From: Prochlorococcus marinus str. MIT 0912
GTDB taxonomy: Bacteria; Cyanobacteriota; Cyanobacteriia; PCC-6307; Cyanobiaceae
DNA length: 64,000 nt
Assembly (NCBI RefSeq): GCF_027359595.1
Contig: NZ_CP114783.1
Coordinates: 1,674,001 to 1,738,000, forward strand
Reading direction: 5' to 3'
Position numbers and translations under genes: made by a program. Below, piece by piece: positions 2,048 through 59,375 of the stretch (positions are counted from its first letter, which is position 1; every line of letters begins with the position of its first letter). Under the pieces are notes generated by a model. It was given only the letters and a program-made list of their open reading frames with translations, did not search any database and was not told the origin of the DNA.

Positions 2048-2833
2048 TTATGAGTCCTCAGGTTGCATTGGTCCTTGAAGATTACCTGTGCGAAATTGTT
2101 TTACATAGGAATTTTCACTTTGTTTAAATTGATCTATAGATCCATCCCATTTAAACTTTCCATCGTAAAGCAAAATAACTCTATTAGCTGTTCTTTCAAT
2201 TGTACTTGAAACGTGACTTACTACGATTGAACAGCCTTTAGCAGCATCAGTGGTTTTAATCATTAGATCTTCAATTCGAGTACAAGCTATTGGATCTAAA
2301 CCAGCAGTTGGTTCGTCATATAGAAGCAGTGGAATAGAGTCTTTCCCTGTATTGGAGTCACTAATTAATGCACGAGCAAAACTTACTCTTTTTTGCATTC
2401 CTCCACTAAGTTGATTTGGAAATTTTTCTGCTACATCATATAAACCTACTTTTTCTAAACAATTTATGACTTTTTTATGAATAATCTCTTCAGAAAAAAT
2501 TTTTTGCTTTTCAAGCAAAAAGCCTACATTTTCCCTAACAGTTAATGATGCTAATAATGCTGGGTTTTGAAAAACCAATCTCACATCGGGAGGGTTGTTT
2601 TGATCAAGCCTTAAATAATTTTGCTCAATACCTGATATTTGAAGACTTCCGTTAGTAGGTAAGAGCAATCCTGCTAGTAGGCGAAGTATTGTTGACTTGC
2701 CTGAGCCAGATGGACCAACAATTGCCAGTCTCTCTCCAGGACTCATGGACAGATTAACTTCATTGAGAACTTTATTTGATCCCAGTTCTACACTGAGATC
2801 TTTCATCAACATTACTTGAGTGTTTTTTGGCAC
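2048..2833 (-). CDS. ABC transporter ATP-binding protein, MlaF/Ttg2A type
   Basis: This 261-aa ATPase probably powers the MCE-type lipid transporter whose binding subunit follows it. Walker A GPSGSGKST is at about residues 40-48, the signature LSGGMQKR at about 142-149, and Walker B LLLYDEPTAGLD at about 169-180, with the switch histidine in VVSHVSS after it. The start is GTG, chosen because AGGAGAG lies just upstream of it and the N-terminus fits the family. The gene heads a two-gene minus-strand unit and is divergent from the YvcK-like gene, with about 118 bp of shared upstream DNA. Confidence 0.9.
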   Translation of the reverse strand: MPKNTQVMLMKDLSVELGSNKVLNEVNLSMSPGERLAIVGPSGSGKSTILRLLAGLLLPTNGSLQISGIEQNYLRLDQNNPPDVRLVFQNPALLASLTVRENVGFLLEKQKIFSEEIIHKKVINCLEKVGLYDVAEKFPNQLSGGMQKRVSFARALISDSNTGKDSIPLLLYDEPTAGLDPIACTRIEDLMIKTTDAAKGCSIVVSHVSSTIERTANRVILLYDGKFKWDGSIDQFKQSENSYVKQFRTGNLQGPMQPEDS

Positions 2834-2951
2834 ACTCTCTCCTAAGGTTTGTTTACCTATCTCATTTTGTATGAGATATGTGAATTGGGAAGTTTAATTA
2901 GAGTTTTTATGAATTAATTATTTAGGTCTTTTTGTTGAAATCTTCTCTAAC

Positions 2952-4358
2952 TTGAATCCATTGAACAAAAGAAGGAAAAGAAAATTAAAAAGATCTACTT
3001 TGCGTAAAAGCTTTTTCGCTAGTTTGTCTTTTCAGCTTTACTCACGCTTTAAAAGAGCTATTAGATGGCTTTTGCCAGGACTAGTAGTCAAAAGGTGGAT
3101 GATGACATCTGGAATGGGCTTGTTAATTGCTTTGATTGGAGCGTCGATTTGGGCTGATCTTCGCCCAATATATTGGGTCGTTGAAATACTTTTTTGGTTT
3201 TTAGGATTCATAACTACTTTTATACCAAGAACTATTTCTGGACCAATAGTCTTTTTGATAGGGATATCTCTTTTGGTTTGGGGGCAAGGGAGAAGTTTTG
3301 AATCTATTAAGCAGGCCTTAGGATCAAAAAAAGATACTTTTTTAGTCGATGCATTAAGAGCTAAACAAAAATTAAATAGAGGTCCAAATATTGTTGCTGT
3401 TGGTGGGGGAACAGGTTTATCGTCTTTGTTAAAAGGCTTAAAAAGATACAGCAGTAGAATTACAGCAATAGTTACTGTCGCTGATGATGGAGGAAGTAGT
3501 GGCGTTCTTAGAAGAGAATTGGGAGTTCAGCCTCCTGGAGATATAAGAAATTGTTTGGCAGCTTTAGCAACGGAAGAGCCACTAATAAAAGGTCTTTTTC
3601 AATATCGCTTCCCCTCAGGAAGTGGACTGGAGGGACATAGTTTTGGGAACCTTTTCCTTTCCGCATTAACAGCCATAACTGGAAGCTTAGAGACTGCGAT
3701 TACTGCATCTAGTAAAGTCCTGGCTGTTCAGGGGCAAGTTGTACCAGCTACTAATGTAGATGTTCGATTGTGGGCGGAGCTTGAAAATGGTGAACGAATT
3801 GATGGAGAATCAGCTATTGGAAAGGCTCACCTGCCAATCATAAGAATCGGTTGTTTCCCTTCTCGACCGCCCGCTTTACCCAGAGCTCTGGAAGCGATCA
3901 GAAATGCAGAAATAATTTTAATAGGGCCTGGCAGCCTTTACACTTCAATTCTTCCAAACCTACTTGTACCTGAAATAGTCGAAGCAATCGAGAGGAGCAA
4001 GGCCCCAAAACTTTACATATGTAATTTAATGACCCAACCAGGTGAAACTGATGGGCTTGACGTTACTGGTCATGTGAGAGCTATAGAAGCGCAATTGGCA
4101 TCTCGAGGGATTACTAGGAAAATATTTAGTTCAATACTTGCTCAAGATGAATTAGCCTCTTCACCATTGGTTGATTACTACAAGTCACAAGGCGCTGAAC
4201 CGGTCAAATGCAATAAGATTGACCTTTTGTCTAGAGGCTATAAAGTTTATTTAGCATCACTTCAGGGTTCAAAGACCACTCCAACTTTGAGGCACGATCC
4301 TAGGAGTCTCGCTTTGGCAATAATGAGATTTTATAGAAGATACAAAAAAGGTAAATAA
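2952..4358 (+). CDS. YvcK/CofD-like protein (UPF0052) with N-terminal membrane segments
   Basis: YvcK-family proteins bind UDP-GlcNAc and influence central carbon use and cell-wall metabolism in other bacteria; the cyanobacterial role is not settled. The 468-aa protein has a basic N-terminus, two or three hydrophobic segments (about residues 50-115), then the conserved domain beginning AVGGGTGLSSLLKGLK with VTVADDGGSSGVLRRELG (about 150-195). The call rests on that glycine-rich motif pair. The predicted start is TTG and has no convincing ribosome-binding site, so the true start could be further in. It converges with ndhJ, 2 bp away. Confidence 0.85.
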   Translation: MNPLNKRRKRKLKRSTLRKSFFASLSFQLYSRFKRAIRWLLPGLVVKRWMMTSGMGLLIALIGASIWADLRPIYWVVEILFWFLGFITTFIPRTISGPIVFLIGISLLVWGQGRSFESIKQALGSKKDTFLVDALRAKQKLNRGPNIVAVGGGTGLSSLLKGLKRYSSRITAIVTVADDGGSSGVLRRELGVQPPGDIRNCLAALATEEPLIKGLFQYRFPSGSGLEGHSFGNLFLSALTAITGSLETAITASSKVLAVQGQVVPATNVDVRLWAELENGERIDGESAIGKAHLPIIRIGCFPSRPPALPRALEAIRNAEIILIGPGSLYTSILPNLLVPEIVEAIERSKAPKLYICNLMTQPGETDGLDVTGHVRAIEAQLASRGITRKIFSSILAQDELASSPLVDYYKSQGAEPVKCNKIDLLSRGYKVYLASLQGSKTTPTLRHDPRSLALAIMRFYRRYKKGK

Positions 4359-54765: not shown

Positions 54766-55515
54766 ATGACTATTAATTTTTTTATAAGTAAATACTTTAG
54801 GTGCGTAATAATAACTGTCTTCGTTGTTATTTTGACTACTAATATTATTTTTCTAGATACTGATATCATTAGTGATTTCTTTTATAAAATTGTAAGCGGT
54901 TTAAATTCAAATAATTTTTTTAGTTTAATATTAGTATTCTTATTATTTATATTAAGATCCACTAGTATAATAATACCAGTTTTACCTGGGACAATATTTT
55001 CCGCTGCTGCTGGTTTTCAGTTTGGCTTTACGCAGGGACTAATTATTATATTTTTTGCAGATTTTTTCTCTTGTTCAATATCATTTATGCTGGCCAGAAA
55101 ATTAGGAAGAAGTTATATTAGTAGATTACTCGGTTCAAGGCAAATGAGAAAAGTTGAAAGCATTAGTCAAGATTATCTAGAAAATAATTATTTCCTTATG
55201 ACAGCTCTTCTGATGTCAGGGTTCTTTGATTTTGTTTGCTATGCAATAGGACTAACAAAGATAACTTGGAAAAGGTTTATGCCTGCTTTGATTTTTAGCA
55301 TAATAATCTCAGATTCCCCTTTTGTTGCTAGTGGTTTTGCTGCAAGAAGAATTAAGGATATTGGATTGAAAAACTTCTTACAAAAAATATTAAATGGAGA
55401 ATTAGATATGATTTCTGGAAATTATCTTTTTCTATTCATAACATCTTTTCTAATAATTTTCACTTTAGCAATTATAAATATATATTTAAATAAAAAATCT
55501 AATATTATTAAGTAA
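54766..55515 (+). CDS. VTT-domain (TVP38/TMEM64, DedA-like) membrane protein
   Basis: A 249-aa polytopic membrane protein and a paralog of the product of 21894-22553. Shared features are VLPGTIFSAAAGFQFGFTQGLIIIFFADFFSCSISFMLARKLGRSYISR and NYFLMTALLMSGFFDFVCYAIGL. It has about six hydrophobic segments and extra terminal segments compared with its paralog. Function is probably membrane lipid handling, by family; the substrate is unknown. Confidence 0.8.
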   Translation: MTINFFISKYFRCVIITVFVVILTTNIIFLDTDIISDFFYKIVSGLNSNNFFSLILVFLLFILRSTSIIIPVLPGTIFSAAAGFQFGFTQGLIIIFFADFFSCSISFMLARKLGRSYISRLLGSRQMRKVESISQDYLENNYFLMTALLMSGFFDFVCYAIGLTKITWKRFMPALIFSIIISDSPFVASGFAARRIKDIGLKNFLQKILNGELDMISGNYLFLFITSFLIIFTLAIINIYLNKKSNIIK

Positions 55516-55523
55516 TTAATTTG

Positions 55524-55554
55524 CAAAAAAAAAAGCCCTTAAGAAATCAAGGGC
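55524..55554 (-). terminator. Terminator of the DUF4278 mRNA
   Basis: On the minus strand GCCCTT...AAGGGC forms a stem followed by a T-run of ten, 21 bp past the stop of the DUF4278 gene. It also lies 9 bp past the convergent VTT gene. Confidence 0.7.
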
Positions 55555-55575
55555 AAATAGAAACTTTAATTGTCT

Positions 55576-55677
55576 CTAGCTTTGGTAAGACTTACCTCTG
55601 TATGTAAGTTGTACATGCTGCTTTTCTACAACTGCTTTTTGCTGGTTGTACTTTAGACCTCTGTAGGTTAAAGACAT
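55576..55677 (-). CDS. 33-aa DUF4278-type peptide
   Basis: A complete 33-codon frame starting MSLTYRGLKYNQQKA and ending QLTYRGKSYQS. The LTYRG motif appears twice, at about residues 3-7 and 24-28. DUF4278 members in cyanobacteria share the pattern L-x-Y-R-G-x-x-Y; their function is unknown. A ribosome-binding site, CGGAGA, lies 9 bp before the ATG, and a stem-loop lies just before it. The gene is too short for standard callers. Confidence 0.8.
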   Translation of the reverse strand: MSLTYRGLKYNQQKAVVEKQHVQLTYRGKSYQS

Positions 55678-55697
55678 TTTTTTTTCTCCGAAATATG

Positions 55698-55723
55698 CTC
55701 AAGTCCCCGTTCCTTGGCTTGAG
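55698..55723 (-). promoter_or_regulatory. Leader hairpin just before the DUF4278 ribosome-binding site
   Basis: CTCAAG and CTTGAG (with further pairing of CC/GG) form a stem around the GGAACG region, 21 bp before the start codon. The base of the stem ends about 7 bp from CGGAGA, so folding could affect access to that site. No factor is known. Confidence 0.45.
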
Positions 55724-55940
55724 TCAAACTGCGGCTCATCGTTTAATGAGTTGAACGTTTTTGGTAGTTTTTGCTACAGATTTACTATAAACATAATATT
55801 TTATTGTCGATGTTCACCTTGTTACATAAAGTTGACTGTCTTTGCTTAGGCAAGACTTTATCAATGCTTATGATCTGTGACAGTTGAAGAACTCAAATAC
55901 TCAGCCTACCTCTTATCAAAAACGTTGATTAAGTTTAATT

Positions 55941-56034
55941 TGTGAGGAGTTGAGATCCTCCGCAGTGGAAACAAGGAAACACTTGCGCCTGATCTCACAA
56001 AGAAACCGCCCTAACAGAACTGGGCGGTTTTTTT
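55941..56034 (+). ncRNA. yfr2: Yfr2-family non-coding RNA
   Basis: The hallmark of Yfr2 is a loop with repeated GGAAACA; here the loop 55966-55982 reads TGGAAACAAGGAAACAC. It is closed by CGCAG/TTGCG (55961-55965 with 55983-55987) and an outer stem TGAGATC/GATCTCA (55951-55957 with 55991-55997). A terminator follows: AACCGCCC/GGGCGGTT (56004-56029) with a T-run. The 5' part begins TGTGAGGAGTTG (55941-55952). Ends of the transcript are estimated. Family function is regulatory and not fully known; interaction with Yfr1 has been proposed. Confidence 0.85.
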
Positions 56035-56224
56035 GTTCCTTTTCTAGGATGGTTTAATCATATTTCCACTTCCCCAAGTTGTTTTAGGATTACTGCTTTT
56101 AAGCACAGCATTAGTTTTGATTTTTGATATCAGATACAACCCATTCGGAAACAGTGAGGACGATATCTAATTAGGAATTTTTTCGGATGCAGACCCTTGG
56201 TGGAATTGATTAGAAAAGGAAAAG

Positions 56225-56303
56225 CAGAACAACTCCTCACACAATCCGTTCTGTACATGAAGAGAGGGACTCAAGGTCGCTGAAGCAGCAGGGTCCCTTT
56301 CTT
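56225..56303 (+). ncRNA. Putative structured RNA with a Yfr1-type motif loop
   Basis: A 6-bp stem CAGAAC/GTTCTG (56225-56230 with 56248-56253) presents a 17-nt loop containing ACTCCTCACAC (56232-56242), the ultraconserved motif of Yfr1. A second hairpin follows (AAGAGAGGGAC with GTCCCTTTCTT, 56260-56303, one G-U, inner GCTG/CAGC), which could terminate the transcript. In known Yfr1 the motif is single-stranded between two stems, so this is not a standard Yfr1. Transcript ends are unknown. Confidence 0.55.
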
Positions 56304-56326
56304 AATACCATTGTTAATTAATTAAA

Positions 56327-56497
56327 TCAGTCTCCTTTATCGTGGATATCTCCTGAATAAGATTGAGTTCCTATCTCTGGTGGTGGATTATTTCCGAAGT
56401 CATCAACTAAAGCATCTGCTTCACTTGTAAAAAGTTTGGTGAACCATTGCTTAGTTGCAATAATTGCTGTCCAGATCTTGTCTCTTTTTCTAGTCAT
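56327..56497 (-). CDS. Small soluble protein, 56 aa, function unknown
   Basis: A 56-codon frame starting MTRKRDKIWTAIIATKQWFTKL, with an acidic second half (SEADALVDDFGNN) and a C-terminal tail with IGTQSYSGDIHDKGD. GAGG lies 7 bp before the ATG. I do not recognise a family. No other frame or RNA explains the stretch; the structured RNA ends just past its stop on the opposite strand. Confidence 0.55.
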   Translation of the reverse strand: MTRKRDKIWTAIIATKQWFTKLFTSEADALVDDFGNNPPPEIGTQSYSGDIHDKGD

Positions 56498-56725
56498 AGA
56501 GATACCTCGAATTAAGTAAGGGGGTATGTGTGTATGTGTTTACTCTCTTCGAGTTCATCACCCCAGAGATTGAAGTGTTTTGACTCCTGATTTTGTTGTA
56601 CTCCTCTTAAATGGAAATTCATATGGGTGAGAACACCAAAGTATTTCTACAGTTGGGTTCTCTGCATAGATATTTTTGATTAGTGGAAGTAGATATAAAG
56701 CAAGGAACTATTAGGAGGTCTAACC

Positions 56726-56911
56726 ATGTCATGCGGTAATCCTTTTAAACATGCAATCGAAGACGTAAAGGAAACATTCTCGAAATCTTGTGGAGTTCCT
56801 ATGCAAGGGAACGATTGGTGTGATCTGGTTTCGAATTATGAAACTGATTTTGATGAGGTCGATTACGAGAATGAATGCTTGCAGTTTGGTAACTGCTCAA
56901 TGGACTACTAA
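56726..56911 (+). CDS. Small acidic cysteine-rich protein, 61 aa
   Basis: The ATG is preceded by AGGAGGTCTAACC, a nearly perfect ribosome-binding site. The product has cysteines at 3, 22, 32, 51 and 57 and a strongly acidic second half (YETDFDEVDYENE). The five cysteines could bind metal or form disulfides. No family is recognised. The 228 bp before it have no gene. It is followed 30 bp on by a 20-aa frame. Confidence 0.65.
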   Translation: MSCGNPFKHAIEDVKETFSKSCGVPMQGNDWCDLVSNYETDFDEVDYENECLQFGNCSMDY

Positions 56912-56941
56912 AAAACATTGAACTAACAGGAGTTTTTTCTC

Positions 56942-57004
56942 ATGTTCACCAGATCTAGATTTGCTAAAAATGCATTAGGAGTTCTAGCACTTCCGTTCCA
57001 GTAG
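56942..57004 (+). CDS. Possible 20-aa peptide
   Basis: A 20-codon frame beginning MFTRSRFAKNALGVLALPFQ. CAGGAG lies 8-10 bp upstream, and the gene follows the 61-aa protein on the same strand, before a strong terminator. The product is basic then hydrophobic. Length is too short for coding statistics; it may be a real peptide, a truncated gene or chance. Confidence 0.4.
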   Translation: MFTRSRFAKNALGVLALPFQ

Positions 57005-57057
57005 ATGGTTGGTTAGTCAGTGTGGATAGTTCAATTGGATACAAGAGTGCTGAACTC

Positions 57058-57091
57058 AAAAAGGGGGTGATCAAAATCTCACCCCCTTTTT
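57058..57091 (+). terminator. Terminator of the 61-aa gene unit
   Basis: An 8-bp GC-rich stem GGGGGTGA/TCACCCCC around an 8-nt loop, flanked by an A-run before and a T-run after, so it could act in both directions. Confidence 0.85.
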
Positions 57092-57212
57092 AATGAGAAG
57101 GGAATCTGCGACTTGACCTGGCAGACAAAAGTAGTAAATTTGTATTAGTTTAATCTTAGTTAAAACGGCGATTAAAGCATCTTATAGGCGGGTGCTTTTT
57201 GTCTCTTGAGTC

Positions 57213-57494
57213 ATGCAAATGAGCCAACCAATAAGAGAAGCATTGCCAACTCCATCAGGGTGGTTAGTTGCTCCTGCCAGAGATTTTTGCTTGTTTTTTA
57301 TTCGAGATCCGAAATCGGTCATGATTGCACCGACTGTCTTCACCCAGCTTTGGTATTGCACTGAAGAAGGGATTCCAACCAAATTGAAGAACACAAGACG
57401 ATTGGACTATGAATCTGCCCATGAAACTTGGAATGAGCTCCTATCTAATGATTGGGAGTTGGTTGACTATCAGATTAATGATGCCGCTGCATAG
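57213..57494 (+). CDS. DUF1651 family protein
   Basis: A 93-aa protein of the DUF1651 family, which is found mainly in Prochlorococcus and marine Synechococcus. Seen motifs are SGWLVAPARDFCLFFIRDPKSVM (residues about 15-37), TKLKNTRRLDYESAHETWNELLSNDWELVDYQ (about 55-86). The role is unknown. An alternative ATG two codons later is equally possible. It stands alone with about 120 bp before it. Confidence 0.75.
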   Translation: MQMSQPIREALPTPSGWLVAPARDFCLFFIRDPKSVMIAPTVFTQLWYCTEEGIPTKLKNTRRLDYESAHETWNELLSNDWELVDYQINDAAA

Positions 57495-57584
57495 TGGGGC
57501 ATTATCAAAAAAGCTTATGGAACCCGGTTTATTTGTGTTTTATCAGATGTGAAGTGAAATAGTGTTTGTCGGGAAAATTATGAG

Positions 57585-59300
57585 TTATTGATTGAACTCT
57601 GATAAATATTGATTGAACTTCATTTTAAACATTGTGTTACTATTAAATATTTTAATTGCTGGTTTCAAAAGATCTTGATAACTTTTCCAGCTAGATATTT
57701 CATTTTTGTTTATTATTTTTGAATTAAATTTATTTGTTATTTTTATTGTTGTTGGATCTAGATTAGGCTTTATATATTTAATGTCATTCTCCCATCCAAG
57801 CCAATTAAGAAGATGTTTTATTTCTTCTTCAGTATTTGTGACTAGATTATCATAATTCAGAAAATATACTTTAGAACTATACTTTTTTTTGTATTTTTCC
57901 ATTAAAGCATAAACTTCTATCCAAAGCTTTGCTGATTCATCTATAGAGCAGGAGTAAGTGTGCTTATTTCCCATATTCTTTTTATAGATTTCTTTGATGT
58001 TGTCTAAAGGATTTCTATAGCAATAAATAACCTTTGCTGTTTCTATTTCGCTGATAATTAAACCGTAATTGAATACATTTATTGGAATTGTTGCAGAAAT
58101 AAATTGTTTGCCAATATAATCAGCTTGTATATAATCATAATAGAGTTTTAATAAACTTGGATTAAGTGAATTTTCTTTTGCCTCTAGATATATTTTGATT
58201 GCTTTCTCTAGTGATGGGTTCTCTCCCAATTTTGTTAGTTTATTATTACAAGCAAGTATAGATTCAGTAATTGTTTTACCTGATCTTGGCATTCCGAATA
58301 TGAAAATTGGAATTGGAAAATTCCTAGTATAATTTAATAAAATTTTATTTTCTTGCAACTCTTGATCGAAAATATTTATATTACGTGTAATATCTAAATA
58401 ATCTGAACCATATATATTTCGGTTCAAGTTATTGGCTTTTTTTAGATATTTGGAAGCTTGTGAGAACTCATATTTTTCTTCTAGTATATTGGCCCTAGCG
58501 AAAAAAATATCAACCTGATCTTTTTCTCTTGAATGATTTAATATGCTTTCAGAGAAAAGTTTATCTTGCCATTTATTTTTATTATTTGAGGGATTAAGAG
58601 TTGATAGAGCAAAGTATGCTTTAACTAGATTAGGATTAAGTTCAATGGCTTTTAGTATTGATATTTCTGCTTGTTGAAACTTGCCAAGATCTTTTAATAT
58701 GTTTCCAAGATTATTGTGAGCAGCAGAGAAGTTAGGATTAAGTTCAATGGCTTTTAGCATTGATATTTCTGCCTGTTCTAATTTTCCTAGAACTCTAAAT
58801 ATATTTCCTAGATTATAATGAGCCTCTGTGAAATTAGGCTTGAGTTCAACTGCTTTGCGATAAGAGTTTTCAGCATCTTTAAATTTTCCGAGGTCTCTTA
58901 ATAAATTGCCTAGATTCGAATGAGCTTCTGCGTAATCAGGTTTGATTAAAATTGCTTTGCGATATGATAATTCTGCTTCTTCTAACTTGCCCACATCACT
59001 TAATATTATTCCCAGATTGGAATGAGCATTAGCGAAATTGGGATTGAGTTCAATTGCTTTACGAGTAGATGACTCTGCATCTTGATATTTTCCAAGATCT
59101 TTTAAAATGACTCCATAATTAGAAAAAACTCTGTGATCATTACATCCTTGATTTATTATCTGTTGATAATATTTTGTAGCTTCTTGAATATTTCCTTTTA
59201 GATGAAACTGAATTGCTTGATTGATTATTTTTTCTTTAGAATGTTTGGTTTTTTTATTGCTTTTCTTTTTAGATTTTTGCTGCTCTCCAAAGCCTTTCAT
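57585..59300 (-). CDS. TPR-repeat protein with C-terminal sulfotransferase domain
   Basis: About residues 25-220 are at least six 34-residue TPR units of the form NPNFANAHSNLGIILSDVGK, several nearly identical in sequence. From about residue 330 is a sulfotransferase: the PAPS-binding IFIFGMPRSGKTITESIL and, later, YCYRNPLDNIKEIYKKNM. Such proteins are common in picocyanobacteria and probably sulfate a protein or glycan on the cell envelope; the target is unknown. The ATG at 59300 (MKGFGEQQ, 571 aa) is preferred to a TTG at 59360. Confidence 0.83.
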   Translation of the reverse strand: MKGFGEQQKSKKKSNKKTKHSKEKIINQAIQFHLKGNIQEATKYYQQIINQGCNDHRVFSNYGVILKDLGKYQDAESSTRKAIELNPNFANAHSNLGIILSDVGKLEEAELSYRKAILIKPDYAEAHSNLGNLLRDLGKFKDAENSYRKAVELKPNFTEAHYNLGNIFRVLGKLEQAEISMLKAIELNPNFSAAHNNLGNILKDLGKFQQAEISILKAIELNPNLVKAYFALSTLNPSNNKNKWQDKLFSESILNHSREKDQVDIFFARANILEEKYEFSQASKYLKKANNLNRNIYGSDYLDITRNINIFDQELQENKILLNYTRNFPIPIFIFGMPRSGKTITESILACNNKLTKLGENPSLEKAIKIYLEAKENSLNPSLLKLYYDYIQADYIGKQFISATIPINVFNYGLIISEIETAKVIYCYRNPLDNIKEIYKKNMGNKHTYSCSIDESAKLWIEVYALMEKYKKKYSSKVYFLNYDNLVTNTEEEIKHLLNWLGWENDIKYIKPNLDPTTIKITNKFNSKIINKNEISSWKSYQDLLKPAIKIFNSNTMFKMKFNQYLSEFNQ

Positions 59301-59375
59301 ATTTAAAAATTTCAGGGTCTTTTCTTCTTTTGACCATAATATCTTTCTACCGACGTCCAAATTGCTGTTTTAGAA

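Follow-up and report, generated by a model that had tools for sequence, protein, structure and literature searches.

The 64,000-nt window analysed here comes from a Prochlorococcus genome (hereafter G000), which we take to belong, probably, to the low-light LLI group. On its forward strand lies a Yfr2-type sRNA (Cyano-1; positions 55936-56035 of the window), and the sequence-only reading that had proposed this RNA is borne out by the covariance model RF01701, which scores 64.7 bits at 55936-56000 against a gathering cut-off of 41. The RNA has a terminator stem at 55998-56035 and a single-stranded 5' part that carries TGTGAGGAGTTG at 55941-55952, and the segment 55938-56035 folds well (z -4.94). 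With the conserved GGAAACAAGGAAACAC loop, the 5' GUGAGGAG motif and the terminator, it shows no notable difference from the Yfr2/Cyano-1 family. Upstream, on the same strand, is the box TGTGACAGTT (55876-55885). When 64 distinct yfr2 contexts were compared, 46 had the pattern TGTGACA[AG]T upstream of the gene; in 45 of these it stands 92-95 nt 5' of AACAAGG, and in one its position was mis-measured. The box is a possible regulator site.

Head to head with yfr2, on the reverse strand, a glutamine-II (Gln-II) riboswitch (55698-55760; RF01704, 70.9 bits) forms the leader of a 33-aa ORF with a Pfam match to DUF4278 (55576-55677) and marks this as a Gln-II-linked yfr2 locus. A simple pattern recovers the same arrangement at 15 of 33 relative loci, which is a lower bound since the pattern missed loci that have both elements by coordinates (e.g., G034, G039, G040, and G035). 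G000 has seven matches to the riboswitch, and the arrangement suggests that glutamine sensing may be linked to yfr2. Downstream of yfr2 on the forward strand is a 37-codon membrane-like ORF, a remnant or a gene (56057-56170), whose start is ATC in both G000 copies and ATG in 15 of 18 cassettes examined; it occurs in 39 of 119 genomes searched, a figure that includes degraded copies and copies at any genomic position. Further on, the ORF list gives a 56-codon ORF with no assigned function on the reverse strand (56327-56497). The 37-, 56-, and 61-aa ORFs have no Pfam or NCBIfam match that passes the cut-off, and a 160-aa ORF that is taken up below has none in Pfam.

Between the two small ORFs, on the forward strand, is the second element (56223-56304), delimited from folds and from an alignment of 29 sequences of its type. 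It folds into a 7-bp stem (56224-56230/56248-56254) with CAACTCCTCACA (56230-56241) at its loop, followed by a 13-bp terminator-like stem at 56260-56303 (z -3.75). A longer 5' end weakens this fold: for 56178-56306 z is -1.45, and 20 of 200 shuffles fold equally well. The sequence-only reading had placed all of the second 12-mer in the loop, which holds for 11 of the 12 bases, the first (C56230) being paired in the stem. It had also given each RNA its own terminator-like end; the folds agree, but a consensus terminator scan lists neither the Yfr2 terminator nor the Yfr10-like one, so that both rest on the folds.

How should this element be classified? In the folds it has the layout of Yfr10, with the Yfr1 motif ACUCCUCACAC (56232-56242) single-stranded in a stem-loop and a terminator behind it. 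Its position is not that of Yfr10 in high-light strains, where the gene lies upstream of yfr2; here it is 280 bp downstream. The Rfam Yfr10 model (RF02362) gives it 22.2 bits against a cut-off of 43, a score that lends no support because the neighbouring Yfr2 sequence itself receives 30.0 bits. Filing it as Rfam Yfr10 is therefore rejected, and for that reason it is named Yfr10-like “type B.” Nor is it Yfr1 itself. Canonical Yfr1 is encoded elsewhere, as had been claimed, at 687516-687573 of the same genome (RF01116, 65.1 bits), and RF01116 matches nothing in the 64-kb window at its gathering score, nor anything in 55500-57200 with the E-value limit raised to 10. The motif CUCCUCAC is common to both RNAs, but Yfr1 presents it between two stems and type B in a loop. 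Elsewhere in the genus, hairpins upstream of yfr2 (type A) come closer to Rfam Yfr10, their best score of 38.0 bits still being below the cut-off, and are probably the counterpart of MED4 Yfr10; in a MED4-like genome (G233) Yfr10 is matched at its published coordinates (346661-346738) and precedes Cyano-1 in all three loci fetched. One type-A model match of 63.4 bits (L137, G050 C1:37200-38300) has a loop without the CTCCTCAC motif, and a search of the same strand over this 1.1 kb gave no yfr2 pattern. Taken together with the reading developed below, and with the same good confidence, the second element is likely to be a Yfr10-like hairpin that, as a predicted RNA, would expose the cyanobacterial Yfr1 motif above a terminator.

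The complementarity reported between the two RNAs is confirmed. The exact reverse complement of TGTGAGGAGTTG lies 280 bp away on the same strand (56230-56241), and each 12-mer occurs once in 55701-56600. Across both strands of the window CAACTCCTCACA occurs twice against 0.01 expected, a count reached by none of 100 shuffles; for the 10-base core with one mismatch allowed the window is unremarkable (6 matches, reached by 8 of 100 shuffles). Genome-wide, the core ACTCCTCACA is present at 11 sites and a reversed control at 2; of the 11 core sites, 10 fall in Yfr1, Yfr2 or Yfr10-like RNAs. A chance match of the 12-mers is rejected by the shuffles and the reversed control. Co-folding of the two RNAs, which had been suggested as a check, likewise predicts a duplex far above background: the ensemble ddG with Yfr2 is -11.1 kcal/mol for type B, against a mean of -2.7 (sd 1.1, minimum -7.5) for 200 loop shuffles and -2.0 for a mutated motif. 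Type A (-12.4), a lone type B (-13.5) and Yfr1 (-17.3) were scored in the same way, which makes Yfr1 the strongest predicted partner of Yfr2, above the local type B.

Few sRNA-on-sRNA networks are known in bacteria; that of Yfr1, Yfr2, and Yfr10 is one, and it was worked out in a high-light strain. MED4 Yfr10, Yfr12, and Yfr18 adjoin Yfr2, Yfr4, and Yfr5 and are complementary to them (PMC2518516), the Yfr1 motif of Yfr10 sits in a hairpin loop (PMC2518516; PMC6778093), and local Yfr2-Yfr10 pairing was tested experimentally (PMC6778093). MED4 Yfr2 is described as relieving Yfr1 repression of a reporter, as pulling down Yfr1 and Yfr10, and as shielded by them from RNase E (PMC6778093). The idea of a local partner, put forward in the sequence-only reading, had thus already been published for MED4 (PMC2518516; PMC6778093). 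The likenesses to Yfr10, Yfr12, and Yfr18 are the Yfr1 motif in a loop, a place on the same strand beside a Yfr2-type RNA, complementarity to its 5' end and multiple copies; the published Yfr12 motif also has C-to-U changes compatible with pairing, as in the CUCCUUACC form found among relatives of this locus. The partner lies upstream of yfr2 in MED4 and downstream here, where it has another terminator, is separated from yfr2 by the 37-codon ORF and is too divergent for the Rfam Yfr10 cut-off. For this group, no report of a Yfr10-like partner placed behind yfr2 was found in the open-access main texts searched on these RNAs, and Yfr2 is absent from the matches listed on gene conversion or concerted evolution.

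By this analogy, the Yfr2-type sRNA and the Yfr10-like element would pair loop to 5' end. The Yfr10-like RNA would bind mRNAs through its Yfr1 motif, and Yfr2 would bind that motif and inactivate it, while the bound Yfr10-like RNA may block cleavage of Yfr2 by RNase E. G000 holds four Yfr2 (Cyano-1), five Yfr10-like hairpins and one Yfr1, all with the same pairing letters. With the letters present in several copies, any Yfr2 could meet any Yfr10-like RNA or Yfr1, and the locus would be a node in a dosage network. The overall reading, judged likely, is of a Yfr2 with a downstream Yfr10-like element that acts as such a node, the copy in the window having come from conversion by an island cassette. 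What is new here is the downstream partner, the multicopy and non-private nature of the RNAs, a 649-bp probable conversion tract, the C-to-U loop variant and the spacing from stop codons; the local pair itself is a known idea. The locus and its relatives add another Prochlorococcus group at genus level, in which each genome has more partners, a third type follows yfr2, the C-to-U variant of the motif is common and some loci look as if they had been copied from others.

The tract in question (55876-56524) starts at the TGTGACAGTT box, includes the 56-codon ORF and is identical over its 649 bp to a stretch of G000 350 kb away on the opposite strand (C1:1379204-1379852). To its left, 55500-55875 matches only Gln-II loci (12 of the 12 given, at 82-90%) and none of 11 island loci, while the best matches of the yfr2-ORF part, 55876-56200, are island loci (100% in G000). 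To its right, 56525-56930 is matched about equally by Gln-II and island loci, which leaves the conversion less sharply bounded on the right than on the left; at 57201-57580 a Gln-II locus (G032) matches at 86% and G000's own island copy at 74%. Near-identical cassettes within one genome are also seen elsewhere (two at 100% in G002; 99.2% in G038), against a between-genome median of 92.6%. These matches point to a probable gene conversion in which, we infer, the yfr2 of a Gln-II-linked locus was replaced by an island cassette (yfr10A-yfr2-small ORF-yfr10B) through homologous recombination, which would have begun at the shared upstream box. This would explain why the window copy is without yfr10A. 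The exact 12-mer occurs in 3 of 15 Gln-II-linked yfr2 loci (G009, G022, and G026; near variants in G032 and G033) and in none of the 25 orthologous loci described below, and on that count the full motif of the window copy resembles Gln-II loci more than island loci. Since the loops in both G000 copies are Gln-II-like, exchange may have run both ways. The island-like region around the second copy (L041 1-18001, G000 C1:1374000-1392000) holds three Yfr2, four Yfr10-like hairpins and many uncharacterised small ORFs, together with a TPR-sulfotransferase gene with in-gene repeats that is a relative of window 57585-59360.

Could type B instead be the 3' end of an mRNA, a terminator with a Yfr1-motif hairpin that is freed by processing or acts in place as a Yfr2 sponge? 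Of 32 distinct type-B contexts, 17 have a stop codon 56-57 nt upstream of the stem, mostly with the same spacer TAATTAGGAAT, and the spacing is equal behind the 37-codon ORF and behind the unrelated 160-aa ORF in L062, as it is, by coordinates, in L041 (ORF 2585-3067, stem at 2531). For 26 of the 32 type-B hairpins, compared with 11 of 58 of type A, there is an ORF of at least 30 aa whose end lies 25-95 nt upstream. Because type B stands at the same distance behind unrelated ORFs, an origin from 3'-UTRs has to be taken seriously as an alternative. However, the 32 contexts are not independent because most are one cassette, the ATG of the small ORF has been lost in G000, 5 of the 18 cassettes have a broken copy of it, its variants (13 synonymous and 21 non-synonymous codons) do not clearly point to coding, and no clear gene precedes the hairpin at Gln-II loci. 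This origin is possible but is held with some doubt. A bolder version, in which the Yfr1-motif hairpin would be a movable 3'-end module behind stop codons of unrelated small genes, spreading between yfr2 loci by gene conversion, appears rather unlikely; were it true, Yfr2 and its antagonists would evolve in concert, and Yfr2 would target whole mRNAs by way of their 3' ends.

Conservation of the pairing site was assessed at one best-matching locus for each of 29 relatives, 25 of which have a type-B hairpin there. The loops of these 25 read CTCCTCACA in none, CTCCTTACC in 21, CTCCTCAACA in 3 and TTCCTTACA in 1. By the sequence-only reading's own criterion of conservation in close relatives, the exact 12-mer fails, being found in none of the 25, although the CUCCUUACC (C-to-U) form in 21 retains 11 contiguous pairs, one of them G·U, with a predicted -8.3 kcal/mol. 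Over the wider set the loop letters are strongly conserved, with ACAACTCCTCACAC in 53 of 85 hairpins from 21 genomes and the CTCCTTACC type in 22, and AACTCCTCACAC is invariant in a 28-sequence alignment of type A. Such natural variants of the pairing site are available for testing the specificity of the network.

The variability of the orthologous loops would fit a decaying paralogue, that is, a terminator without present function whose Yfr1-like loop has been maintained through descent and copying, and so would the lack of co-variation with the local Yfr2 at downstream partners and the absence of the type-B hairpin from several Gln-II loci. Against decay, the CUCCUUACC form is uniform across 21 genomes with its 11 contiguous pairs kept, compensatory and G-U changes preserve the stem and terminator, and some type-B copies that carry the full motif are free-standing. 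Decay is considered unlikely.

Whether neighbouring RNAs belong to each other was addressed in a census of 62 loci from 21 genomes, which counted hairpins if they had a T-rich tail and a stem of at least 7 bp. It comprises 65 Yfr2 and 85 Yfr10-like hairpins; 43 of the 65 Yfr2 adjoin such a hairpin, and 22 are without a Yfr10-like neighbour, some of these adjoining a hairpin with a variant loop. The local pairs number 38 upstream (type A) and 25 downstream. When partners were re-dealt, 83 of 500 re-deals reached the observed score in an earlier count; by paired cells, 744 of 1000 did so for downstream pairs, 25 of 1000 for upstream pairs and 90 of 1000 for all pairs, with mismatches added in this comparison by high-light loci, whose register differs from that of the duplex assumed. 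Downstream partners thus fit no better than re-dealt ones and do not form a private pair. The compact two-RNA antisense pair of co-evolved local partners that the sequence-only reading had envisaged is highly improbable, for although the RNAs adjoin, share a 12-bp match and, in an upstream pair found in two genomes, show a single double change that is compensatory, the pairing letters are common to all copies, re-dealing downstream partners costs nothing and Yfr1 is the stronger predicted partner. That sole compensatory change (G020 and G032) is probably one event, since the sequences there are nearly identical; at the two loci concerned (L054 and L058) Yfr2 carries GAGGAGTAG and the loop of the upstream hairpin reads GTACTCCTCGCA.
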